Source of the DNA: Miscanthus floridulus
Lineage: Eukaryota > Streptophyta > Magnoliopsida > Poales > Poaceae
Direction: 5' to 3'
DNA: 64,000 bases
Assembly: GCF_019320115.1 (NCBI RefSeq)
Contig: NC_089583.1
Span: 79,315,928 to 79,379,927, forward strand
Position numbers and translations under genes: made by a program
The notes under the pieces: generated by a model
Seen by the model: only the letters and a program-made list of their open reading frames with translations
What the model was told of the DNA's origin: nothing
Databases searched by the model: none
In this document: piece after piece, positions 1 to 51,330 of the stretch
Layout: the number at the start of each line of letters is the position of its first letter
Numbering within the stretch: position 1 is the stretch's first letter

Positions 1-33
1 GTGAGGCACAGTACGTCACATTTTGTGTCAACA
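1..33 (+). repeat. 3' end of the 5' LTR of element A
   Basis: These 33 bases match 10573-10605 with a single difference (c at position 9 versus t). Both end in GTGTCAACA, the complement-type partner of the LTR start TGTTAACAC at 9230. Confidence 0.9.
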
Positions 34-40
34 CACTTTT

Positions 41-60
41 TGGCACGCTCGGTGGGACCA
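41..60 (+). other. Primer-binding-site region of element A
   Basis: TGGCACGCTCGGTGGGACC lies 7 bp after the LTR end, where the tRNA primer site of an LTR retrotransposon is expected. It starts with TGG, as primer sites do. It is not the initiator-Met site TGGTATCAGAGC. Which tRNA is used cannot be decided here. Confidence 0.6.
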
Positions 61-74
61 TCTGTTAGTTCAAG

Positions 75-3000
75 ATGGCATCTGAGATCAACAATGATCA
101 TGTTCTGGATGTAAGCATGGCAGAATTGCTAGATAATTACAAGGATTTAGTGCTTCAAGCATGTGAGCAATACCAACGGAAGTGTTTGATGTCTTTTTCC
201 AAAAACAAGAGCAATAAAGTGTTTCAAAAGCAGTCAATGCCAAGGGTTCTTCTTCCGCATCAAACTGATTACACTGAAGAGGAAGATGCTCAGAAGATGG
301 CAGCCCTGGTCTATAAAGCCATGGGAGAAACCATGACAAACCATCACACAGCTTTTCTGAATACCTTTCGGGCGATCATGATCAGTACTTTTGGTCCAAT
401 GGTTGATAAATACTTCGAAGAAAATGTTGGACCACTCAGTGGGCCGACGCTTTTCAATGTTCCAAAGCATCAAGAGAAGCCTGTTGGGAAAGAAGTAGCG
501 TCACCTTCAAATATAGGTGGATTGACTCATACTGAAAAGCAATCACATCCCACCTATGGCCAGATGGCATTTGGTACCACAGGGGAAGTGCCACCTTCAG
601 CTTATAGAGTTTCTCCAATATCAAACAGATTGCAAAAGAATATGTATGGTGATGGGTATCAAGAATTTACTGATTACAGTGCTATCAATGCTGTGCTAAA
701 TCTAGGGTATAGAAGTGTTTCAGGATTGCCTTCTGGAGTGCAAGTACAAGGAAATCAGGATTCAGGCATTGATGTTTTGATGCACAGGATGGCTGATATG
801 ATGCAAAATCAGTTCGGCTTGAAGCCAAAGAATCAATCCTATTCATACAAGTCTCCTTATCCAGAATGGTACAACAGAGTGGTGTTACCTCCAAGGGTGA
901 AGCCTCCAACAGATTTAACTAAGTTTTCTGGTCAAGATGATACTAGTACCATAGAGCACGTCAGTCGATACTTAATGCAGCTTGGAGAAGCTGCTTCAGA
1001 TGAAGCTTGGAGGATTTGATATTTTCCTTTGTCTCTTATAGGACCAGCTTTCACATGGTTCACGTCTCTACCAGCTCATTCCATTGGTACGTGGGCAGAA
1101 CTAGAGCAGAAGTTTCATTCATATTTCTATACGGGTACTAATGAGAAGAAGTTGGTTGATCTCATGAGTCTGAGGATGAGAACAAATGAGACACCATTGG
1201 AGTATCTTCGCAGGTTTAGGGAGACCAAGAATATGTGTTATTCTCTAAATTTACCAGATGATCAACTACCTAGAATAGCTATAGCAGGAATGTTGCCGAA
1301 TATCAGGGAGAAGTTGTTCGGTTTAGAGTTTGATGATCTTGGTCAACTTGCACAGCGTTTAGCAGCTATGAGTAATCAAGTCCAAGGATTCAGGAGAGAT
1401 AATCGCTTTCAGAAGAACAGTGCCACTAATGAGGTGTATCAAGGCTTTCTGGATGAAGCGACTGAGTATATTGATGAAGATGAGATAGCTGCAGCTGAGT
1501 TAAATTGGGCAAAGGAACCCACTCAAGTTAGTCAACGCTGGTTGAAACAACAAAAGGGAACCTATGATTTTGATGTTACTAAGGCAGACAGACTTTTTGC
1601 ATTGTTGATAAAGGAAGGACGCATCAAGCTACCAGAAGGACATCCTATGCTACATCCTGAAGGAGTGAAGGACAAAAAGTATTGTGGTTTTCATAACACT
1701 AATTCTCATTCTATTAATGATTGCCGAGTGTTCAGAATACGAATCCAGAAAGCTATCCAAGAGGGACATTTGAGGTTTGACGGTAAGATGAAAATTGATG
1801 ATCAACCTTTTCCACAAAATATGATTTCTTTCTCTGTGAATATGGTCTCTGCCAATGATCTCAAGGGTATGGGCAAGGTGAAGGTGTTGACTTCTGATAG
1901 AGCAAAGGAGAGTGGTGCTGTTGACCCAGATCGGCAAGTCACCAGTAGAGAGCTGCAGCAACGAGTTCGGTTTCAGAATAGCCGAACCGAGAAAGGTCAA
2001 ACTTCCAAACCCAGAGTTACATCACGTATTTTGCTAAACAAGTGGCAGAGGGAACAAGAGAAGGAATACTGTAAGAAGCAATGGTTTATGCAAGTATACC
2101 GAAGGGAGCAAGAAGAATACATGACAGAACAGGAGCAGTCTCATTGGGGTTGTTCGTTCTTTAGGCATTGTTGGAATGAAGGTTTGAGGTTGCCTGCAAG
2201 AAATAATTGTCCGGAGTGTAGTATTCAGTACTCCGAGTATAGGCAATCTCGAGTCAACCGCCGTCCCGTCTATGAAAGACTTGGAACGAAGGTTCCTGAA
2301 GATGATCGGCGCTTAAAGATAGGTGGCTTTGAGAATCAGCAAAGGAAAAGAGTTGCAGGTTCGGGTTGGATTCATAATAGAGTGCATGATGAGGAAGCTG
2401 ACTTCTATAAATACGTATGGCAAAAAGGACAGTGGTGTCCTCCAGGCCTAAGGAAAAGTCAGAAAAGAAGAGTGCAACGGTTGAGGAATAGGGAGCTGGA
2501 ATTGGAAGTTGCCGAAACAAAGCAAATATGGCGTCCTAAAAAGAAGCCTGATGGATGTGGTCCTTCGGCTAATGCTTGCATGGCTTTCTTCCTCCCATCA
2601 GAGTTTATAGCTCCCGAAAGCCAAGATGTCCAAGAAGAGGTGTACTCTGATGTTGATGAAAGTGAATGTCAGGATTTGATGACTCAGCTTGTATTAACAC
2701 AGCAGGCTGTTTTTGATAAACCAATCAAGAATCGTCACTTGAGACCACTCTATTTAAAGGGATATGTCAATGGCAAGCCTTTAACTAAGATGTTTGTCGA
2801 TGGAGGGGCTGCTATCAATATCATGCCTTATACTACCTTCAGGAAACTTGGGATGACTAATGAAGAATTGTTGAAAACTGACATGGTGCTCAGAGACTTT
2901 GCTGGCAATCCTTCCGATACCCGAGGTGCTATCCATGTCGAGTTGACCATTGGATCGAAAACTCTGATTACTACCTTTTTTGTCATTGATGGCAATGGGG

Positions 3001-3269
3001 CATATAGTCTACTCTTGGGCAGAGATTGGATCCATGCTAATTGCTGCATTCCTTCAACCATGCATTAAATTCTCATTCAATGGATTGGAGATGATGTTGA
3101 AATTGTACATGCTGATGATTCGGTAAGTGTTGCTGCCACAGAGTCTACCTATTGGGAATATGAAGGCGTTGATTGTTTCTCTGGAAAAGTGTGGAAAGAA
3201 GGTCCTGTGAATGTTTTCAGCGAGGACCAACAGCCGATCCAAGCAGTCGGCTCTCATAGTAATTTTTAA
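75..3269 (+). pseudogene. gag-protease gene of element A with two in-frame stops
   Basis: One reading frame from ATG 75 to TAA 3267-3269 (about 1064 codons), broken by TGA at 1017-1019 and TAA at 3066-3068. Protein similarity continues across both stops in the same frame. Visible parts: an acidic-basic N-terminus, a retrotransposon gag domain (motifs PLSLIGPAFTWF and LEYLRRFRETKN) around codons 290-430, a CX2HX4HX4C cluster (CGFHNTNSHSINDC) near codon 540, a second Cys-rich patch (CX6C...CX2C) near codon 700-715, and an aspartic protease with an FVDGGAAINIMP active site near codon 910. DGG in place of DTG/DSG is an acceptable protease variant. Gag would form the particle and the protease would process it. 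Its stop overlaps the ATG of pol. Confidence 0.85.
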
Positions 3270-6049
3270 TGGGAAATCCTGTCAATGGCAACAAAGGAAA
3301 GTTGGGACGTGGTTTTATGTCGGCTGATAAATTGGAAGAAATTGATGTTGGTGATGATTCTAAGCCAAGGCCGATGTATATTAGTGCGAAGTTAGACCCA
3401 GAATATAAATCAAAGTTGATAAACCTGTTGAAAGAGTTTAAAGATTGTTTTGCTTGGGATTATACGGAAATGCCTGGATTGGATCGTTCCATTGTTGAGC
3501 ATCGATTACCCATTAAACCTGGATTTCGTCCTTACAAACAACCTCCATGGAAGATATACAAAGAGGAGGTATTGGCCGATGTAAAGAAGGAAGTTGAAAG
3601 ATTAATAGAAGCAAACTTCATTCGGCCATGCAAGTATGTAGAGTGGATTTCGAATATAGTACCAGTATACAAGAAAAATGGAAAAATGAGAGTTTGTATA
3701 GATTTCAGAAATCTTAATAAGGCAACTCCCATGGATGGTTACCCAATGCCAGTTGCCGATTTGCTGGTAGATGCAGCAGCAGGTTATGAGGTCATTAGTT
3801 TTATGGATGGTAATGCTGGCTATAACCAAATTTTTATGGCAATAGAAGATATTTCGAAAACAGCTTTCAGATGTCCTGGTCATATTGGTTTGTTCGAGTG
3901 GATAGTCATGACGTTTGGGTTAAAGAATGCCGGTGCAACTTATCAAAGAGCTATGAATTATATTTTTCATGAGCTGATCGGCAAGATTGTAGAAATCTAC
4001 ATCGATGATGTAGTAGTCAAGTCTAGAAATCATGAAAGACATTTAGCCGATTTAAGAAAGACTCTGGAGTGCACAAGAAAGCATGGCTTGAAGATGAATC
4101 CAAACAAATGTGCCTTTGGAGTTTCGGCTGGTGAGTTTTTGGGATTTTTAGTTCATAAAGGAGGAATTGAAGTTGGTAAGAAGAGCATGGAAGCAATAGA
4201 CAAAGTTGTGCCGCCAACTAATCTCACAGAATTGCAATCATTGTTAGGCAAAATCAACTTTGTAAGAAGATTCATATCCAATCTATCAGAAAGAGTTTTA
4301 CCCTTTTCCCCTTTATTGAAGCTCAAGAAAGATCAAAAATTTGTATGGGGTGACATACAACAAAAGGCTTTTGATGAGATCAAACAATATATGAAAGCAC
4401 CACCTGTGCTGGTACCTCCACAACTTGACAAGCCTTTTAAGTTGTATGCGGCGGCCGATAGCCTAACGATGGGATCGGCCCTTATGCAAGAGTTTGAAGG
4501 AAAAGAAAGAGTCATAGCTTATCGTAGCCAAAAGTTGTTAGACCCGGAAACAAGGTATTCGGCTGCAGAAAAACTTTGCTTATGTGTATATTACTCATGT
4601 ACCAAATCTCGGCACTATTTGTTGAATTCCGAATGCGTGGTGGTTTCTAGTTTTGATGTAATCAAACATATGTTATCAATGCCGATTTTGAATGGAAGAA
4701 TTGGCAAATGGATTTTAGCATTGTCGGAATTTAATTTAAGATATGAATCGGCAAAGGCGGTAAAGGGTCAAATTATTGCCGATTTTATTACCCAACATCG
4801 GGATCTTTCTGTTGAAGTGGTAAGCATTGTGCCTTGGGCTTTGTTCTTCGATGGATCATCTTGTAACAAAGGTGGTGGTGCTGGTATTCTCTTGATTTCC
4901 CCACAAGGAAAAACTTTTGAATACGCGGTTCCTATTGAATTTCATGTTACTAATAATCAGGCAGAGTATGAAGCATTGATTAGAGGGCTTCGGCTTCTTA
5001 TAGAAGTAAAGGCCGCTGCTGTCGAGATCTTTGGGGATTCTGAGTTGGTGATTAATCAATTGAATGGTCAGTATGAATGCAAGAACAATGTGTTAAGAGA
5101 ATATTATGAGGAGTGTAGAGAACTTTTGAAGAATTTTCTGGTAGTAACCTTGCATCATGTCCCTAGAGAGTGCAATGAAGAAGCAAATAAGTTAGCTCAA
5201 GCTGCTTCTGGATATCGAGAGAGTCGGGAAATTTTTGCTATAGAAGAAGGTGTTTTAAATACTGATCAAGTAAATGGTGATTGGAGATACGAAGTTACCA
5301 ATTATTTGAAAGATCCATCTCAAAAGGTTTCCCGAAAACTCAGGTACAAAGCTCTCAAATTTGTGTTTCTTGATGATCAGTTATATTACAAGTCCATCGA
5401 TGGAGTATTGCTCAAATGCTTAAGTCAAGAAGAGGCCAAGAAAGTGATGTATGAGGTTTACGAAGGATTGTGTGGTGCACATCAGTCAGCTTATCGGATG
5501 AAGTGGATAATTAGGAGAACTGGTTATTTTTGGCCAACTATGTTGGAAGATTGTTTTGAATATTACAAAGGGTGTCACAATTGTCAGAAATTCGGCAATA
5601 TTCAAAAAGTTCCAGCGTCTGCTATGAATCCTATAATCAAGCCTTGGCCGTTCAGAGGATGGGGTATAGATTTAATTGGTCAGATCAATCCTCCTTCTAG
5701 TAAGGGACACAAATTTGTACTCTTGGCCACGGATTATTTCACCAAGTGGGTGGAAGCTATCCCTTTGAAAAAGGTAACGTCAGAGAATATGATCAGTTTT
5801 GTTAAGGAGCATATAGTTCACAGATTCGGGATTCCTCAGACTATAACAACTGATCAAGGAACTCAGTTTACTTCTTCAGAATTCTATGACTTTGCCAAAA
5901 GTATGGGGATTAAGTTGTATAATTCTTCTCCTTATTATGCACAAGCTAATGGTCAGGCAGAAGCATCAAATAAGATTATGATTAAAATTATCCAGAAGAT
6001 GATTGATTGCTTCTATGGCCTCGGTCCTGATTCTTCTAACATTATCTAG
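3269..6049 (+). CDS. pol polyprotein of element A: RT, RNase H, integrase lacking its C-terminus
   Basis: Open for 926 codons from ATG 3269, which overlaps the gag-protease TAA as TAATG in the -1 frame. RT covers roughly residues 60-340, with YIDDVVVKS near residue 243. RNase H starts at FFDGSS near residue 527. Integrase has an HX..CX2C-type region (residues about 730-775), then a catalytic core with GIDLIG near 800, TTDQGTQF near 861 and GQAEAS near 896; D and E are separated by exactly 35 residues (DD35E). About 12 residues past the catalytic Glu the similarity to integrase stops near base 6006, and the last residues are read from the tail of the opposite-strand gene. The integrase C-terminal domain is therefore missing, so the product is probably not integration-competent. 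Confidence 0.88.
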   Translation: MGNPVNGNKGKLGRGFMSADKLEEIDVGDDSKPRPMYISAKLDPEYKSKLINLLKEFKDCFAWDYTEMPGLDRSIVEHRLPIKPGFRPYKQPPWKIYKEEVLADVKKEVERLIEANFIRPCKYVEWISNIVPVYKKNGKMRVCIDFRNLNKATPMDGYPMPVADLLVDAAAGYEVISFMDGNAGYNQIFMAIEDISKTAFRCPGHIGLFEWIVMTFGLKNAGATYQRAMNYIFHELIGKIVEIYIDDVVVKSRNHERHLADLRKTLECTRKHGLKMNPNKCAFGVSAGEFLGFLVHKGGIEVGKKSMEAIDKVVPPTNLTELQSLLGKINFVRRFISNLSERVLPFSPLLKLKKDQKFVWGDIQQKAFDEIKQYMKAPPVLVPPQLDKPFKLYAAADSLTMGSALMQEFEGKERVIAYRSQKLLDPETRYSAAEKLCLCVYYSCTKSRHYLLNSECVVVSSFDVIKHMLSMPILNGRIGKWILALSEFNLRYESAKAVKGQIIADFITQHRDLSVEVVSIVPWALFFDGSSCNKGGGAGILLISPQGKTFEYAVPIEFHVTNNQAEYEALIRGLRLLIEVKAAAVEIFGDSELVINQLNGQYECKNNVLREYYEECRELLKNFLVVTLHHVPRECNEEANKLAQAASGYRESREIFAIEEGVLNTDQVNGDWRYEVTNYLKDPSQKVSRKLRYKALKFVFLDDQLYYKSIDGVLLKCLSQEEAKKVMYEVYEGLCGAHQSAYRMKWIIRRTGYFWPTMLEDCFEYYKGCHNCQKFGNIQKVPASAMNPIIKPWPFRGWGIDLIGQINPPSSKGHKFVLLATDYFTKWVEAIPLKKVTSENMISFVKEHIVHRFGIPQTITTDQGTQFTSSEFYDFAKSMGIKLYNSSPYYAQANGQAEASNKIMIKIIQKMIDCFYGLGPDSSNII

Positions 6050-9000
6050 CACTTTTTGATCTTCATCTTCAGAACTCTGGATGCTGGATAACTTATTTTT
6101 GATCTGCTGGTCTTCTTTGATGGTCGAAGCTATCTTTAGTGAAGTTGCTTCTATGTTCTTCGGCAGATTGGTTATATGGGCCCTGTGAGACTGAATTTTG
6201 GCATTCAGTTCGGCTAGTTGAGCTTCTAGTCTGATTTTTTCATCCTCCATGGATTTCAGTTTAGGCTCCAAGGTTGCCAAGGAATTTCTCGTAGTCTGGA
6301 TATGAGAGTGAAGATCTTTAATATCCAACTTTTTCAAAGATCTATCCTTCTGCAGAGCGGCCCTCGAAGATATGTTCTTGGTTGCCCTTCTCACCATAGC
6401 AAAGTGATCATCAAGATGGGCTGCAGATTCTAGGGGAGCCTTGAGAGCAGAAGGGATATCTTGATCAATGAGTTCAAGGAGGTCTTTTATCTGGTCTGCA
6501 TCCTGAACCAGACTAATGGTATCTTTATTCAGCAGAATAATCACTTCTTTTAGCCGAGCCTGATTCTCCAGTGATAAAGTTTGATGAGAAGTGATCTCTT
6601 CACCTTTCTCAATAATGTAGTCCTCAATAGAGAAGGAGTAACTGGTGGTCGGTTTAGTGATGTTCTTCTAGACAAAGAGGAAGAAAGAAGGTGTTAGCCG
6701 ATTGGGTAATTTTGCTAAAATATAGTATGAGACAAGGCATTACCTGTTGGGCTGATTGGTCATCAGGATGGGTTATACCCTGGCTTGCTGGAGGACTTTA
6801 TTGAAGGTTCAGAAGAGACGGGTCTGGAGATTGATCAGGAGAAGTTTCCCTTGCCAGTTCATCTAAGATCTCATCTATTCTCAGTAAAGTAAATGATAAT
6901 GAGCATAAGAGATAGATGTTGTTAAAGAGAAAGGAGAGGAGAATTGGTTGAACAATGTTACCTATAGTCTCATCAGGTCTATGAGCCTTTGAACCTTCAG
7001 CTTCATGGGTCCCTGAAATTTCGCTATCATGGATTTCTTCATCTTCAGTAGAAACTTCAGGGGTTGGTTCTGCAGGCGCTGAGGTATTACCCAGTATGGG
7101 AATTTCGACTTGTGGCTGCAATGGAAGAAATGAATGTAGAGGTAGTCAGGCTTACTGCTAAATGAGATGGTTGACCTGATAAGAAAACAAAAGGTTCATG
7201 CCTTAAGGGATAATCTGGCTTTCTTGGTCCTTGGTTTCTTGGGTAAGAGAAAACTTTCAGGTGTTTTCCTTTTGCTTTTTCCTCTAGAAGATGCAGCAGC
7301 TGAAGTAGCAGGAGTTCTCATGAGTGCCTTTAGAGGTGCTGAATCCAAAGTTGCAGAAGTTTTCATGAATTCCTTTAAGTTTGGAGCATCAAACCCCAGA
7401 GCAGGTTTGGGACCAGCCGGATAGTACTGAATTGCTTTGGCAGGGGGAGTAAACTCAAGATCCTGTGCATGACCAGATGTTAAAATAAGAAGTGGATTCA
7501 AGAACAAGAAATGATGGGCATAATGAAATTACCTCACTGTCAGAAGCAAAATCGGGTTGCAAGTTTTTGCATAAAGAATGAACTGATATATTAAAGATAT
7601 GAGCATGCCATTCTTGCCACCAAGAGACAAAGAGGGGATGAGCAGCATCTATTAGCCCAAATGGAGATGGTTCGTATATTGGTAATTCCCATCCTAATTC
7701 AAAGACCTTCTTGGCTTCTATTCCTTCTGTTATTACTTCCCTTGATTTTATGATTGTTGAGAAGAGGAATTTTGGAGGCAGTTGGCCGCATCCTAATTGT
7801 CTGGCCACCATGTTTGGATAATAGAATTCATAGGTGGATTGTACTAATCTCCCATGATGAAATTCGGCTGGCAAAGTGCAAGGTTTGATAAAGGAGTTGA
7901 AAATCTCTGTGGATTCTTGGCCTGAACAACCAATTTCATAGCTAAACTTACAGGGCAAAGTCAGATCTTCATTTTCTCTGTAAGGAAACCAGAGCACATT
8001 GCCGAATCCTTTGAAAAATAGCTTGAAGAGATGACCAATGTCTATATCAATGCTTATAGATGCTGCTGCTTCCCCATAAGTCTGACAAGCCTTAACCTTT
8101 GCTGTGCTGCCTTCAGCATAGTTAACTGAGGGGAAACTTAGGTTGAAGAGGCTCACATGGGTTATCTGATGCATATATAGTTGGAGCCACATTTGAATTA
8201 GCCACCAGGGACCATTCACACAAGAAATTTCTCCACCTTGGCGCATCTGAAGGGTGATCTGATGCATCATATGATAAGCAGACCCTAAAAGATATTTGCC
8301 TAATGGGATCTGGGTGCCTGCAGCTAAGTCTTCAGCCATTACCATGTGATTCAGGGTTGGTTCATTGGATTTTCCATAGAAGATGAATCTGCATAGCCAC
8401 ATATTCATGAAGGCTTTCAACTCTTTGTCAGAAACGGTGCCAGATGCATTCATATAGTTCTGGATATGTTTGACCCATCCACATCCAGAACTGATGGCTC
8501 TTTGATTACTCTTGCTCTTGTACTTATAAGGATATACTGGCAATGACACATTCAAACCAGTCATCATGAATACGTCGGCTAGAGTGATGGTCATAATACC
8601 ATGACCAAAGATAAAGGCATTGGTAGCGTCAGACCAAAAATGAGAAGCTGCTATCAGAAAGGAATCATTCCTGGATGTCTCTGCTAAAGATAACTCCAGA
8701 CAATGACTGATGTCCTGACTTTCCCAGTGGCTGCTGCTCTTCTCCAACATTCTCCTGTACCAGTTGCGCCATCCGGTGATTGGGGGAAATGGCCAATTCT
8801 TGAACGTGTTTGGCCATCGGTTTGGTGAGGTAATCCCAGACTTGAAAGGAATTCTTTGGGTTTCCTTCTCAATGATTTCAGAAGGGTCAAGATTTCCCAT
8901 TGGGCCGAGGAAATAGGAGTCAGGGTTGGCAGCATAAGAGATCAAAATCTGGCTCTTGTACTCCTTTAGAAGATGATTGAAATCAGAGGGGAGTAAATCA

Positions 9001-9079
9001 AAAGAGGAACGGAAAGATGAGATGAAAGTTGCCGAATATAAATAAAGTTTACCTCTGGAATTTCATCCTGGGTCGCCAT
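5966..9079 (-). pseudogene. Antisense six-exon gene of element A: plant-mobile-domain-like protein with coiled-coil tail
   Basis: Read right to left: exon 1 9079-9053 (ATG, 9 codons), exon 2 8963-7533, exon 3 7462-7202, exon 4 7115-6962, exon 5 6874-6744, exon 6 6667-5966. The five introns are 89, 70, 86, 87 and 76 nt. All end in AG; four start with GT and intron 3 starts with GC (AAG|GCATGA). Phases agree at every junction (0,0,0,1,0), giving 902 codons including the stop. Exon 2 resembles the plant mobile domain (aminotransferase-like PMD family), with motifs SYFLGPMG, WYRRMLEKS and FMMTGLNVSLPVYPYK. Exon 3 is Lys/Arg-rich at its end (possible nuclear signal), exons 4-5 are acidic, and exon 6 is a long heptad-rich coiled coil. 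One TAA interrupts exon 5 at 6800-6798. The last ~12 codons are antisense to integrase. The function of such proteins is not established. Confidence 0.75.
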
Positions 9080-9203
9080 TGAAGATTTGAAGGAGGTCCG
9101 AGGTTGCGCTGAAAGCTTGAATTTTTGGGCAGCGGCTACGGTTTTGAACGGTGATGACCTAGGAGGATGAAAGAGCTTGTGGTCAATTTCAGAATAAAAC
9201 AAC

Positions 9204-9210
9204 TTTTATC
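9204..9210 (-). promoter_or_regulatory. TATA-like box for the antisense gene of element A
   Basis: The minus strand reads GGGATAAAAG, about 131 bp upstream of the antisense ATG at 9079 and just inside the internal region next to the 3' LTR. It is a weak match (ATAAAA), supported mainly by the same spacing in element C. Confidence 0.35.
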
Positions 9211-9212
9211 CC

Positions 9213-9229
9213 GAAATTGAGGGGGCATG
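9213..9229 (+). other. Polypurine tract of element A
   Basis: GAAATTGAGGGGGCATG lies directly before the LTR start TGTTAACAC and contains a purine run, as expected for the plus-strand primer. Confidence 0.8.
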
Positions 9230-10605
9230 TGTTAACACTAGATTTTGGTCGATTCTGGAAGATGACAGGTAGACCCACATGCGGGAAGAAGGGTGTTCGG
9301 CAAACAACGCAAGCGGTCGGCTAAATGCTTGTGCGGTCGGTTATTCTGGAAGGCGGTAACTCCATTCGGGAAAACAGAAGATGGCAGATAAGACCGATCG
9401 GAAAGATGAGAGTTGTATTAATAAAGGAATCTGTAAGTTTAGGGTAAAGAATCGTAAGTTTCCAAGTTTGTTTAGAAGTTCCTTTGTAAATCGTAGTCCT
9501 TTAGGACTCACATTTCGTCTAGGGTATAAATATTGACCCTCGACCATTGTAATAAGGGTACACAACCAAATCAATACAACCGGCCCCGTGCCAACTTTCG
9601 AGTCCTCTTGTCATGTCATCGAGTTCTTCGAGAGGAATCATCGATCCGTTGACCTCCGTAAGTTCCGACAACCTTGTTATCATGTTTAGTATCATGCGGT
9701 GGATTTAGACATGGTGCAAGTAGTCTTGTTTGTTTTCAATGGTCGTGCGGCGGATCTTTGCTTGACAATCAAGAAGTCTTTGCTTATGCTTCGTTTATGA
9801 GTAGATACCGTGCGGCAGGCGTTTACTCATATGCTTAGTGAAAGCGAGATAGTTATCGGCTCTATATTAGATATGGCAAATCTAAATAGATTCATTAAGT
9901 TATCCAGTGTTGCATGTTTTAAACCTCTTATATATTTGTAACACACTTCTGCCCAATCTAGATTGATATTGTTCGGCCTTCTTTCTCTTGTGGTTTTATT
10001 CGTGCTTCAACGATCATTGTTTATTTTTATATTACCCTTGCAAAATAGATAACATACTCATAGTGGCTGAATTGTCTTAATCTAGATTGTCACATGTTGC
10101 GGGTTCATGCATGTTAATCACGTTTAAGCTTTAACGAAACTAGGTGTCGTGCGGCAGATGCAGGTTTTGGTTTAGTTTAATCGCTTTTATTTGTACGTTC
10201 CTTCTTCATGGATCCCAATTCGGCTGGACTGCCGAGCTTGGTTATGCATTAACTCATAATTAATTTCACTTGTTCAAACATGTCTTCCCATGCACATGCA
10301 TTCGGCAATTAGGTCTTTACGTGCATTTACCCTACGATTAGCTGAATGGTTTATGAACTTGTTGGCAGACAGCTCTCTATAGCCGTATGTCGTTGTAAGT
10401 GGCTTCAGGGCTGTATATGTGGAACTGTCCGGTATTACCCGACATGTTCTGGTTTGACATTTAATTATTTTATCCCTTGTTAGTTTTTTTTCAGGTCAAA
10501 CTGACTGGCACGCTTCCGGATCACGAAACATCCGGGAACCTGATTGAAGCCACGCTTTTCGGCTTGCTGTGTGTGAGGCATAGTACGTCACATTTTGTGT
10601 CAACA
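9230..10605 (+). repeat. 3' LTR of element A (1376 bp)
   Basis: It starts TGTTAACAC after the polypurine tract and ends GTGTCAACA, giving TG..CA ends in a near-perfect inverted repeat. It holds a promoter at 9524. No coding sequence is supported in it. The motif GTGCGGC(A/G)G recurs (near 9690, 9740, 9800 and 10145). Confidence 0.93.
9524..9531 (+). promoter_or_regulatory. TATA box of the element A LTR
   Basis: TATAAATA lies about 300 bp into the LTR. Transcription would start about 30 bp downstream, near 9555, which sets the U3/R boundary. The start position is inferred from spacing only. Confidence 0.7.
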
Positions 10606-28975: not shown

Positions 28976-29924
28976 CGATGACATAATATTTGATAGTACT
29001 AATCATTCTTTTTGTGAGGAATTTAGTAGGATCATGACCAAGAGATTTGAGATGTCCATGATGGGTGAATTGAAGTTCTTCCTTGGATTTCAAATCAAGC
29101 AAGTGAAGGATGGAACTTTCATTAGCCAAATAAAGTACACCCATGATATGCTCAAGAAGTTTGACATGGTGAATGCCAAGCCTATCAAAACTCCTATGCC
29201 AACCAATGGACATCTAAATCTCAATGATGAAGGGAAAGCCATTGATACTAAGGTATATCACTCCATGATCGTCTCTCTACTTTATTTGTACGCATCTAGG
29301 CCCGATATTATGCTTAGTGTGTGCATGTGTGCTAGATTTCAAGCTAACCTGAAAGAGTATCACTTAGTGGCCGTTAAGAGAATCTTGAGATATTTAGTAC
29401 ACACTCCTAACCTTGGCTTGTGGTATCCTAAGGGCTCTAGGTTTGATCTACTTGGATATTCAGATTCCGATTACACCGGTTGCAAAGTAGATCGAAAAAG
29501 CACTTCAGGGACATGTCAATTCCTTAGATGGTCCCTAGTGTCTTGGAGTTCTAAAAAGCAAAATTGTGTAGCCCTTTTCACCGCCGAGGTCGAATATGGT
29601 GCAGCCGGTGCATGTTGTGCTGAATTACTTTAGATGAGGCAAACCCTTCAAGATTTTGGATGTCACTTCACAAAAATCCCACTCTTGTGTGATAATGAAA
29701 GTGCCATAAAGTTAGCCAATAATCCCATAAGTCACTCAAGAACTAAGCACATAGACATCCGATATCATTTCTTGAGAGACCACGAAGCCAAAGGAGATAT
29801 CGAAATTCGCCATGTGAGCACCGAAAAGCAGCTAGCCGATATCTTCACTAAGCCTCTTGATGAGTCAAGATTTTGTGCTTTGCGTAGTGAGCTAAATATA
29901 CTTGATTCTCGTAACATGGTTTGA
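28976..29924 (+). pseudogene. copia pol 3' end: RT C-terminus and RNase H
   Basis: Begins inside the RT YVDD-type motif (DDIIF), continues with FSRIMTKRFEMSMMGELKFFLGFQIKQ and the Ty1/copia RNase H (GYSDSDYTGCKVDRKSTSG, VSWSSKKQNCVAL, TAEVEYGAAG, CDNESAIKLANNP, RTKHIDIRYHFLRDH, STEKQLADIFTKPL). A TAG at 29631-29633 splits the frame. The upstream gag, protease, integrase and most of RT are absent. RNase H as the last pol domain confirms copia order; the SIRE/Maximus placement is from the following extra ORF and LTR type. Confidence 0.88.
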
Positions 29925-34692: not shown

Positions 34693-35066
34693 CTCCCTCT
34701 ATCCCAGTTTATTTGCACGTTTGGGTTCAAATTTTTTCCCATATTAATCGGTCACCGAACCCGACGGAGCATGCAGCAGTGGCAGGAACCATCAGAGCAA
34801 TGCAGCGCTAGACAACCGCACAACGCCAGTGTGTCAGACCAAAACAATAAAAAAAACTAAAAAAAAATCAACGGAGGCTACATCGGCTCCATCCAGAAGC
34901 TGCGGGGGCTACGTGACCCATCCTGGCATAATAAAATGGCCTTGCCTCCGCACAACTATCCACCACTGCAACCGGTCTATATTTATAGGGGTATTTTAAT
35001 AATTTTCTATCTATTTTGGTTGCCGTGCTCAATCTCAGAAATGCAAATAATTCGGGACGGAGGGAG
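34693..35066. mobile_element. Stowaway-type MITE (374 bp)
   Basis: Left end CTCCCTCTATCCCAG, right end CGGGACGGAGGGAG, an inverted repeat typical of Stowaway/Tc1-mariner MITEs. Flanked by TA at 34691-34692 and 35067-35068. No coding capacity. It lies 98 bp past the stop of the glycine-rich gene. Confidence 0.88.
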
Positions 35067-35164
35067 TATATTTATGTATACGGATACACAGAAAGAGGAC
35101 ATCAGAGCTCAGAGAACTGACAGTGGCAATCACACACTGGTGAGGGAGCCATCGTTCACCATCT

Positions 35165-35872
35165 TTATTTGCCATTTCCAGAACCAGAGCCGTAGCCGTA
35201 GCCGTGTCCCTCGCCGTAGCCTGAGCCTGTACCAGCTCCGTATCCACTTCCTGAACCCTCACCGTATCCAGAGCCTTGGCCATGACCGGAGCCCGAGCCA
35301 CAGCCGTAACCTTCACCGTAGCCGGATCCTGATCCATGGCCGGAGCCAGAGCCGGAACCTTCGCCATAGCCAGATCCTCGACCGGAGCCACTTCCATGAC
35401 CATGCCCTTCGCCATACCCAGATCCTTGGCCGTGACCTTCACCTTCACCTGCACCTTGCCCTTGACCATAACCATAACCATAACCATAACCATAACCTGA
35501 ACCTGAACCTGAACCCGTGCCGGCACCAGCTCCTGACCCCGCACCAGAGCCGGCGCCAGAGCCAGCATACGATCCTGCACCAGAGCCCGCACGGGATCCC
35601 GCCGATGAACCGGCACCGGACCCGGAACCTGAGGCCGAGCCAGAGCCTGATCCCGACCCGGACGCTGAGCCAGAGCCAGAGCCAGCGGCACCACCACCAC
35701 CTATGCCGATGCTAATCCCAGTACCGATCCCAATGCCTGCGCCGCCGCCACCACCGAGGTCGATGCTCAGGTCCATTCGAGAAATGCGGCCCTCGGATGT
35801 GAGAGCAAGGGCAGCAAGCACGATGATGGTGATGCCAAGGAAAATGGTCGTGATCGGAGGTCGAGACATCAT
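35165..35872 (-). CDS. Secreted glycine-rich protein (putative cell-wall GRP), apparently intact
   Basis: Single-exon frame of 235 residues. The start is the first of two adjacent ATGs (35872-35870); longer upstream extensions lack support. Residues 1-28 (MMSRPPITTIFLGITIIVLA and following) form a signal peptide with a hydrophobic core. A short basic/acidic linker (RISRMDLSIDLGG) is followed by alternating Gly-Ile, Gly-Ser/Ala, Gly-Tyr and Gly-Glu/His/Gln dipeptides to the end. Such proteins are exported and thought to be structural in cell walls. A TATAAAT box lies at 36035-36029, about 160 bp upstream. A broken paralogue in the same direction lies 3 kb upstream. Part of the repeat is a hexanucleotide run (ataacc) near 35466-35500. 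This is the best candidate for a living host gene in the window. Confidence 0.72.
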   Translation of the reverse strand: MMSRPPITTIFLGITIIVLAALALTSEGRISRMDLSIDLGGGGGAGIGIGTGISIGIGGGGAAGSGSGSASGSGSGSGSASGSGSGAGSSAGSRAGSGAGSYAGSGAGSGAGSGAGAGTGSGSGSGYGYGYGYGYGQGQGAGEGEGHGQGSGYGEGHGHGSGSGRGSGYGEGSGSGSGHGSGSGYGEGYGCGSGSGHGQGSGYGEGSGSGYGAGTGSGYGEGHGYGYGSGSGNGK

Positions 35873-36028
35873 CCTAAATTCCTCTAGGAGAAGCCGGAAC
35901 AATAATGCACCTGTACAGATTGTGTTCCTTTCTATGGATTCAGGTGTATGTTCAAAGGAGTATATGCTATGTATGTCTCCTTTCAACTCCTGGTCTTTCC
36001 TGCTGCTCGAGACGCAGCAAGCTGTGGC

Positions 36029-36035
36029 ATTTATA
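36029..36035 (-). promoter_or_regulatory. TATA box of the glycine-rich protein gene
   Basis: The minus strand reads CCTATAAATGCC, about 157 bp upstream of the ATG, implying a 5' UTR of roughly 130 nt. Confidence 0.6.
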
Positions 36036-36224
36036 GGACCCAAAAGCAGGGTTTCACAAATAGTGCCTGGCTTATTGGTGGCACGAAACTTGTGGTGCTG
36101 TGGCCATTGGACGGCTGAATTTCGGAGTGGTGCTCTTGGTATCTTGTTAGAGCGTACAACGCAGTAGTGGAGTAAGGACGGTGCAAAAGGACATGGGCCT
36201 GACACTATAGGAAAAGCACTGGTG

Positions 36225-36890
36225 CTTTGAGAGGTTGTGATGGAACAGGCCACTGGTCAGCGACGACCCTGGCCGGCACGCCCGCCACGACGGCCCCGTC
36301 GGGGAGGGCCAGCACCGGCGTCGTCCACCAGGCTTGGCGCGGCCCAGACGGAGGTCCTCCGCCGCGTCCTGCACGATCATGCGCGCGCCCGAGGAGCCCC
36401 ACATCGTCGTCGTCCGTCGTCCGGTCCCCTGCTTTGCCCTGTGCATGCGGGGGTTATAACGAACGGAGCCGCGAGGGGAAGGCTGACCCGAGATCTTTCG
36501 TGCCGCCCCTGCCGTGCTTCTCCGCGTCACGCTCGCGCCACACGCGGCCCCCGACGCCGCCACGTTCGGCATCCTCACCTCCTTGCTCTGCCGCGCCGGC
36601 CAGCCCTCCGCCTCCGTGAACATCCTCCGTGGGATGCCGCCCCTCCTCCTCCTCAACCCGGGACCCGCACCACTGCCGCACGTACTCGCTTCCCTCCTGC
36701 TCCGGGGCGCGTCAGGCCGGGACGTGCTCGGGTTCCTCAACGACATGCTCTGTCGGGTGCTCGAGGAGAGCAGGGCTTTCTTCCAGGTGCACAAAGGCGG
36801 AAGGCGCCGTGTACATGCACCAAGGCGTCAGCTACTTGATGTAGCAGCTCGATCTCTCGTTGAGGATGGCGTACTGCACCAGAGTTGATG
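36225..36890 (+). pseudogene. GC-rich gene fragment with a PPR-like segment
   Basis: The frame at 36514-36888 contains PDAATFGILTSLLCRAGQPS and SASVNILRGMP, which fit the spacing of pentatricopeptide (PPR) repeats, followed by HVLASLLLRGASGRDVLGFLNDML. There is no start, full repeat tract or organelle signal. The preceding 280 bp are GC-rich with overlapping ORFs on both strands that cannot be named. A piece of a plant PPR gene carried here by a transposon is likely, but only from pattern. Confidence 0.45.
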
Positions 36891-37000
36891 ACATCAACGA
36901 GATCAACATCCTCCAACAAGGCGAAGGCCATGGCTACGGTGATGAAACTGCATCGTCATCATGGAGATCTAACGACGGAACGGGTAAGGTTTTTACCGGA

Positions 37001-37330
37001 TATGGAGATCGAATGACCAGCTGTCCAACAGCGTCGAGTTCGACCTGCGTCCGTACTCCTACACCCAGGCGGTCTGGGTGAGTGTTCCCGAGCCGGTGAA
37101 GGCGGCCGTGGAGCAAACGAGGCCGGGGTTCCACGGCGGTGTGCATGCGCTCCTCTGCATCCTGCTGCTGCGCATGACGTGCACCGCCTCTAACCTCAGG
37201 ACGCGGTGCACCACCATGGCGTGCGGAAGCGGGAGCGGAGCTCCGGGTGACGGTGATAGGGCCGGGGTGCTTGCTGCAGCGGCGTTTGATGCAGTGGCGT
37301 TTGAGCATCATGCAGCTTAGGCGAGGGTCT
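37001..37330 (+). pseudogene. Fragment resembling the DUF1998 region of an Hrq1-like DEAD/DEAH helicase
   Basis: The frame reads SVEFDLRPYSYTQAVWVSVP, then EPVKAAVEQ, FHGGVHALLCILLLRMTCTA and SNLRTRC. The pattern (aromatic-rich strand, QAVWV, GG(L/V)HA followed by a hydrophobic helix, then Cys) fits the DUF1998 domain at the C-terminus of plant ATP-dependent helicases of the Hrq1 type. The helicase motor is absent and the frame decays after about 37210. It lies next to the PPR-like piece in the same direction. Confidence 0.5.
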
Positions 37331-38040
37331 GGGCACCGAGGCAACGCCGGACCGGATAGGTTTCCAGGGGTTCCGTGCATATTTGCCCGCCATGTGGCAA
37401 CGCCGCAGGGCAAATATGGACAAACGGTGTATTAGTTTATAGGTTTAGGTATCTAGAAATGCGTTCCAGGGCCTAAGTGACACACGGACAAGTTTAAGGA
37501 CCTCTTATGCATTTAACTCAAAAGAAAATCATAACTTTTCTATATATGAATATGAAGTTGGATGTAGATAATTTATTTTACGAATCACTGAAAGATTGAG
37601 ATTGAGTTGCTGTTGATGATCACGTTGCCTAGTTTCACCATAAAATCAACCAACGCTCAATTCACAAAAGAAGATGAATTGTGGAAATCAACGCAATCTA
37701 TAACTTCGTAGTTGATAACATGGTACACTAATAGCTAACTGATGTATCTGAAATCTGAACACAACTTATATATTCAGGGAAATAGAACGAACGTAAACTC
37801 AGGTCTCGTACAGCATCCATTCATCTAAACGTACATATAAAACGTCCACAGAACCAACATGTAAACATGTCATCGGATCACTACAATACATAAAACCTAA
37901 CTGCAATTGTTATTTATATCTTCCTATAAGCTAATCCAGGGATGATAATGATTATTAGAGAAACAGGTCTTCAAGGTAGTAACACACACATGCATATATC
38001 AGTGGTGATCTTGCCCACTTCGAGATCCAGGCATCCAGCG
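37331..38040. other. Intergenic sequence, nothing recognised
   Basis: AT-rich from 37440; no ORF, repeat or end structure is evident. Confidence 0.5.
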
Positions 38041-50232: not shown

Positions 50233-51330
50233 CTAGATACGCTTGAGGACTAAATCTCTAACTTGAAAAGTATAGGGGCGCACGTTCTTATTGTAGTGAC
50301 GTCGTAGGCCTTGTGGTTGCCTGGCAGACTGGAAGAGTGCGTTAAGTTTGATTTCTTCGGCACTGTCAAATTCTAGCCGTTGAGTTTCATCTACTTCGCC
50401 TTCATTGTACTGTTCAACCCTCAGAGAGTTCCATATCAAATCTGCTGGCAAAATGGCTTCTGAGCCATAAACTAGAAAAAAGGGAGAGTACCCCGTCGCT
50501 CTGCTTTGTTGAGTGCGCAGTCCCCAAACTACCTTGGATAACTTGAAGATCCACTTGCCGCCGTAGTCTTTAAGCTCATCGAATAGCCTGAGCTTTAGTC
50601 CGACTAGAAGTAGCCCATTAGCCAGCTCTACTTGGTCGTTCACTTGAGGATGAGCTACAATAGCATAGTCGATGCTGATGCTGCAATCATGAGCCCAATT
50701 TCTAAACTCAATAGCTTTAAAAGGTGAGCCAAGATCTATAATGATCCAATTGGGCATACCAAACCGGTGCATAATGTCTTGCATGAACTCGTCTGCATTT
50801 GTAGCGTTGAATTTGACGAGTGGCTTATACTCTACCCACTTAGTGAATTTGTCAATAGCCACGTAGATATACTCAAAACCACCTAGTGCTCGTTTGAGAG
50901 GTCCAACCATGTTAAGCCCCTAGCATGAAAAAGGCCATGATGGAGGGATGTAGATAAGGTTGTGAGCTAGGACAAGAGCTTGCTTGGTGAAGAACTGACA
51001 ACCCTTGCAGTGTCGCACTAACTCTTCTACGTCTTTCAGTGTTGTAGGCCAATAGTACCTAGATCTGAAAGCCTTGCCGACTAAGGTCCTAGAGGCTGCG
51101 TGGTTGCCACAACACCTGGAGTGAATTTCCTCCAAGATTTTCTGCCCTTCTTTAGGTGTAATGCATTTGCGGAGAACACCATATGATGCACCCCATCGGT
51201 AGAGCCTATCACCGACTAAAATGTAATTCTTGCTTCTGCATGTGATCTGCTCTGCCTCTACCTTGTCATCGGGCAACTTATGGTCTTGGATGTAATCAAT
51301 AAATACTTGCGTCCATGTTGGGTTGACCAC
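50233..51330 (-). pseudogene. Integrase of element C
   Basis: Two long minus-strand frames. The first (51330-50920) has the zinc-binding region (HSRCCGNHAASRTLVGKAFR, YYWPTTLKDVEELVRHCKGCQ). The second (50910-50233) has the core: AIDKFTKWVEY, IIDLGSPF and HPQVNDQVELANG. In the usual DNGSxF motif the middle residues are altered here (DLGSPF). The region after it (VWGLRTQQSRATGYSPFFLVYGSEAILP) is the typical gypsy integrase C-terminal half, present here but absent from element A. Confidence 0.85.

Follow-up and report, generated by a model that had tools for sequence, protein, structure and literature searches.

Introduction

Ogre retrotransposons are members of the Tat group. Retand elements regularly carry antisense extra open reading frames (ORFs) between pol and the 3' long terminal repeat (LTR) (Vicient 2025, PMC11963269), and Grande and RIRE2 likewise have such ORFs at this position (Vicient 2020, PMC7264820). 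A plant mobile domain (PMD) is reported in the extra ORFs of 57% of Ogre elements (Neumann 2019, PMC6317226), such ORFs having been called in that study with getorf at a minimum length of 250 codons. Additionally, the gypsy-encoded clades PMD-A1 and PMD-A2 have been defined (Ikeda 2017, PMC5418596), the domain has been recorded in gypsy consensuses from ten species (PMC9289625), and it also occurs in Mutator-like elements (MULEs; PMC5418596). Plant LTR elements are generally devoid of introns, with Ogre and EVADE listed among the exceptions in a late-2025 review (PMC12786077), and counter-silencing by a PMD protein made by a transposable element (TE) has already been suggested (PMC8616336); here and below, these papers are cited for the passages that concern such genes. 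In this study, we describe a PMD gene lying antisense within a Ty3/gypsy-type retrotransposon of Miscanthus floridulus, located in a 64,000-nucleotide stretch of contig NC_089583.1 (positions 79,315,928 to 79,379,927; hereafter the window, within which all coordinates are given). We interpret it as an antisense six-exon accessory gene of a grass Tat-clade Ty3/gypsy family, the product of which may act in counter-silencing, and we assign this overall reading a probability of roughly 0.5.

Results

The original prediction described a PMD-like gene with introns, antisense in a gypsy-type element, and this description is upheld by Pfam profiles, by the LTR bounds of the element and by relatives in which exons end at matching positions. 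The profile comparison it had called for matched the product to PF10536 with E=2.9e-25 and 89.6 bits (cut-off 34.9), spanning profile positions 2-346 of 347. On the minus strand of 6050-9227 the longest stop-free stretch is 535 codons, compared with 92 codons on the sense strand; in 500 dinucleotide shuffles of the same region this length averaged 104 codons and never exceeded 212. The six exons (Table 1) agree in phase and, when followed to 5966, total 902 codons counting stops. Four donors are GT and one (intron 3) is GC, all acceptors are AG, and an exonic AG precedes all five donors. Furthermore, the pooled introns have T and G fractions of 0.41 and 0.10, respectively, versus 0.26 and 0.20 in the exons (with exon 6 counted up to 6001).

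A single-exon ORF that has decayed might mimic splice junctions through its stops and frameshifts, and the copy in the window is indeed decayed (stops in gag-protease, a frame change in pol and a TAA in exon 5); however, the relatives of the gene speak against such an artefact. PMD relatives (120 listed of 147 found, all being proteins, and the counts for introns 1 and 2 being drawn from these 120) were collected with a query that ended at the last exon-2 codon, and the residues beyond were read off each relative. Since many database proteins appear to have been called on unspliced DNA, these residues reveal the start of the intron. For 31 of these 120 proteins, the alignment extends to the last exon-2 codon and the sequence continues beyond it. 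The next residue is V (GTN) in 29, A (GCN) in one and G in one, where V accounts for 4.4% of residues in the relative set. The second residue is I, M or T, all with A-starting codons, in 31 of 31, and intron 2 of the window itself translates as V-I-S. Exon 3 directly follows exon 2 in none of the 31, and the tails past exon 2 comprise 2 to 94 residues (median 15), compared with the 87 codons of exon 3. Later tail positions are more variable, the fourth still being L in 18 of 24. Exon-3 sequence is reached in two of the 11 tails of at least 25 residues, namely P0013 (42% over 64 residues, E 1e-16) and P0040 (19 residues), and in both cases about 24-25 residues intervene, which equals the length of a 70-75 nt intron. 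The 31 hits are kin and thus do not represent independent events. A further 20 hits align only to positions 457-476 (inspected by eye); V is present near the expected place in close (P0046, P0073, P0081 and P0120) and distant (P0003, P0037, P0083, P0098, P0115 and P0119) hits, the remainder being P0066, which lacks V, six that end or diverge earlier and three joined rice models.

The other junctions were assessed similarly. At intron 1, the alignment extends into the first 15 codons of exon 2 in 18 of the 120. Six of these are joined rice models, another seven start at the exon-2 border or within the exon, and the other five continue upstream of it. Each of these five carries K or Q (NAG codons) at the border or no more than two residues from it, and P0002 and P0112 among them also carry the 9-codon exon 1. 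Intron 5 is read through at both borders in P0130, while P0134, a protein of Miscanthus floridulus itself and probably an automated gene model, joins exons 3 to 6 across all three corresponding junctions in a single ungapped alignment, with 221 of 249 residues identical. Additionally, the rice models P0031, P0033, P0049 and P0095 unite the PMD with the C-terminal part. Conservation of the splice borders within the family, the absence of which the original prediction had named as a refuting outcome, is seen at the protein level in these relatives, the exon ends of which coincide with the same junctions. An exon-2 border with donor-like codons shared by 31 listed relatives, three further junctions joined in P0134, and five introns with T-rich bodies and regular sites together make an artefactual origin extremely improbable. 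The gene, its exon borders, the PMD and the conservation of the borders in relatives are supported at the level of sequence, and we consider it very likely that the gene and its exon structure are real at the level of the family. As a side observation, P0015 has an alanine codon (GCN) at intron 2 where 29 of 31 have valine, and the donor of intron 3 in the window is GC (7201-7200), so that donors of this type may be used repeatedly across the gene family.

The bounds of the element comprise flanking LTRs with a polypurine tract (PPT), as expected of a Tat-clade element, most of the 5' LTR lying outside the window. The Pfam order in pol is PF00078, PF17919, PF17917, PF13456, PF17921 and PF00665, and the succession of reverse transcriptase (RT), RT_RNaseH, RVT_3, H2C2 and rve in the profile scan corresponds to the second RNase H that marks the Tat clade. 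In angiosperm Ogre and Retand elements a second, archaeal-type RNase H lies between RNase H and integrase (PMC6317226), and RVT_3 of this pol would represent that domain. The PMD in the extra ORF, a trait of the Ogre lineage, is present in the window gene (PF10536). TRP28 (PF04195), the trait of Retand antisense ORFs, matched neither the window gene nor any of 60 PMD members, and the original prediction's mention of PF04195 in connection with the product found no support. In the Ogre lineage an intron-like stretch with a mean of 274 bp separates the gag-protease and RT ORFs (PMC6317226); between the corresponding regions of this decayed copy the frames switch near 3270 and a clear non-coding gap is not evident.

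Table 1. Features of the element and its antisense gene (window coordinates)
Feature	Position	Strand	Basis or remark
5' LTR, 3' end	1..33	+	32/33 (96.97%) match to 10573-10605; remainder outside window
Primer-binding-site-like stretch, TGG start	41..58	+	7 bp past LTR end; presumably resembles the 3' end of tRNA-Arg
gag-protease region	75..3068	+	PF03732 E=1.9e-10; PF13975 E=1.1e-7; stops near 1017 and 3066
pol: RT, RNase H, second RNase H (RVT_3), integrase	3269..6049	+	Pfam; frame change near 3270
End of exon 6 as earlier drawn, eight codons and stop	5966..5992	-	integrase sequence read antisense; outside gene
Exon 6, coiled-coil tail, long helix ~6086-6415	5993..6667	-	C-termini of relatives; structure model
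Intron 5, 76 nt, GT..AG	6668..6743	-	joined in P0134; read through in P0130
Exon 5	6744..6874	-	premature in-frame TAA at 6800-6798 in window copy
Intron 4, 87 nt, GT..AG, phase 1	6875..6961	-	joined in P0134
Exon 4, acidic stretch	6962..7115	-	
Intron 3, 86 nt, GC..AG	7116..7201	-	joined in P0134
Exon 3, basic stretch like a nuclear localisation signal (NLS), ~7211-7279	7202..7462	-	NLS reading by eye
Intron 2, 70 nt, GT..AG	7463..7532	-	residues after exon-2 border in 31 relatives
Exon 2, PMD at about 7617-8711	7533..8963	-	
Intron 1, 89 nt, GT..AG	8964..9052	-	P0002 and P0112: 9-codon exon 1, V, then K/Q just before exon 2
Exon 1, 9 codons, ATG	9053..9079	-	joined-exon translation
PPT GAGGGGGCA	9219..9227	+	adjoins 3' LTR
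3' LTR	9228..10605 (about)	+	~1,376-1,378 bp; 3' end matches window 1-33

If a host PMD gene or a MULE had become nested in this single copy, the introns would be uninformative with respect to the element; such insertions are common in plants, and MULEs are among the known carriers of PMD (PMC5418596). However, the antisense gene occupies the element from the end of pol up to about 150 bp short of the 3' LTR. It is also repeated at the level of database proteins, since P0001 (97% identity) and P0010 (95%) stand for 68 and 105 member sequences, respectively. With PMD already published in the extra ORFs of the Ogre lineage (PMC6317226), nested insertion is very improbable.

The six-exon frame of the original prediction held with regard to its junctions, phases and introns of 70-89 nt, but its intact 902-codon frame and its end at 5966 did not: codon 650, in exon 5, is an in-frame TAA, and the last eight codons are foreign to the gene. 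A search for other splice routes between exons 4 and 6, restricted to GT donors and to either a single intron of 60-400 nt or a pair of 60-150 nt each, yielded 15 variants with one intron, of which 13 omit exon 5 and two begin within it, and two variants with two introns, both using other sites; none restores the six-exon form. The frame across exon 5 is open in the relatives P0130 and P0134, and no relative with the whole gene intact as one unspliced record was seen among the database relatives. Twelve of the 15 exon-6 relatives extend as far as the C-terminus, and every one of these terminates two residues beyond the level of 5993 (by eye), whereas the window frame runs on for eight further codons through antisense-read integrase sequence. 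The integrase stops 36 residues beyond its core match, and the tail of pol consists of antisense-gene sequence. These two features together indicate a deletion that removed the ends of both genes and fused the two genes (5966-6049). Given this deletion, the exon-5 TAA, the gag-protease stops near 1017 and 3066 and the frame change near 3270, before RT, the copy in the window is, judged from its sequence, dead.

The broken state of this copy would accord with a function residing in the antisense RNA (as double-stranded RNA or through interference with the sense transcript), the protein being a relic of a captured host gene, and antisense RNA has been raised as a possible regulator (PMC7264820). 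Such a role, however, requires neither a PMD that is still matched by relatives down to about 34% identity nor an exon-2 border that is kept amid differing downstream sequence, and we consider it improbable.

In its predicted fold, the PMD matches the portion of VANC21 that was crystallised bound to DNA. No sequence kinship of the PMD gene with VANC21 was detected, the VANC domains DUF1985 and DUF287 had zero matches in 60 PMD members at E<=10, and no bound-motif arrays of VANC type were found in this one decayed copy, for which most of the 5' LTR lies outside the window. DUF7745 (PF24924) was weakly matched by two of the 60 aligned PMD members (best E=0.074) and is possibly a distant relative of PMD. 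The coiled-coil tail of the original prediction is borne out by the structure model of exon 6, in which model residues 85-194 form a long helix (predicted template modelling score, pTM, 0.38). DUF1409 is listed by the database for 13 of the 15 exon-6 relatives, and our own profile scan of exon 6 of the window gave no match to it. We regard it as rather probable that the product is translated, nuclear and DNA-binding.

Elsewhere in the window, 29034-29633 (+) holds a fragment matching the Ty1/copia-type reverse transcriptase model PF07727 (E=6e-9), and 50233-50910 (-) an integrase-core match to PF00665 (E=4.9e-5) under the curated cut-off. The region 34936-37413 is relatively GC-rich with long overlapping frames on both strands, and a Pfam scan of four frames there gave no match at E<=0.01.

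Discussion

In the proposed mechanism, the transcript would be driven by an antisense promoter located within the 3' LTR or next to it, its start being expected in or just before the LTR, and the host spliceosome would join its exons. Since the genomic RNA is opposite in direction, the splice signals would not be read on it and the introns would survive reverse transcription; as reasoning, such an escape of antisense introns from removal is sound. The spliced antisense mRNA, in turn, would lack LTR, primer-binding site and PPT and so could not be copied. The product, of about 890 residues, would combine the PMD with a basic NLS-like linker, an acidic segment and a coiled coil, and would most likely enter the nucleus as a dimer and bind the DNA of the element.

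Since the predicted fold matches that of VANC21 bound to DNA, the most likely role of this product appears to be counter-silencing that acts on copies of the element itself, although this is proposed tentatively and at somewhat below even odds. The multi-exon gene might instead encode a general nuclear regulator that serves transcription, the export of RNA or the import of the integration complex. A regulatory role has been proposed for antisense ORFs in both Grande and Retand from a comparison with the accessory genes of retroviruses, and gene23 of Grande is driven by a promoter of its own and yields a nuclear product (PMC7264820, PMC11963269); moreover, a basic linker and a coiled coil would suit any nuclear dimer. 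The fold match, however, is specifically to a DNA-bound, transposon-encoded anti-silencing protein, and we hold a general regulator to be less likely than counter-silencing. The match also makes the function of the PMD directly testable, as to whether it binds DNA and to which sequence.

At a more general level, an element that replicates through RNA can carry a eukaryotic-style multi-intron gene when that gene faces backwards, and the accessory gene would have originated from intron-bearing DNA rather than from a processed mRNA. The structure further suggests that surveys based on single-frame ORF finding may truncate such proteins.

The gene shares with the antisense ORFs of the Tat clade (Grande gene23, RIRE2 and Retand) its antisense orientation, its place between pol and the 3' LTR, conservation in a family and nuclear or DNA-related features. 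It differs from the ORFs of PMC11963269, a study based on ORF finding that names TRP28 (PF04195), in lacking PF04195 and in having six exons joined; the words 'intron' and 'PMD' are absent from the main text of that paper (word search). With the PMD ORFs of the Ogre lineage and the gypsy PMD-A clades it has in common a PMD encoded by a Ty3/gypsy element; no exon structure is given for these in the passages of PMC6317226 and PMC5418596 that describe them, and a 2011 survey may describe introns. The retention of an intron within a plant LTR retrotransposon is likewise shared with Ogre, yet the Ogre intron, between gag-protease and RT, belongs to the sense RNA and is removed from only some transcripts (PMC6317226), whereas the five introns described here are on the other strand.

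VANC21 of VANDAL21, a MULE DNA transposon, resembles the gene in fold, as predicted for the PMD, and in being a transposon accessory gene with introns (PMC5735166), and differs in element class, in the lack of detected sequence kinship and in its target-motif arrays, of which none were found here. A structural link between VANC and the plant mobile domain is not drawn in those literature passages that name both. MAIN and MAIL1, host PMD proteins of Arabidopsis, share the PMD fold family and a link to TE silencing, but belong to the genic PMD-C clade and act in silencing (PMC5418596, PMC7156037). It is conceivable, though this is put forward with even greater reserve than the counter-silencing role itself, that the gypsy PMD genes are the retrotransposon counterpart of VANC, that is, sequence-specific DNA-binding anti-silencers with a shared fold and perhaps shared ancestry; they would be multi-intron and antisense because only there do introns survive passage through RNA, and the host MAIN and MAIL1 would be their domesticated or counter-captured versions.
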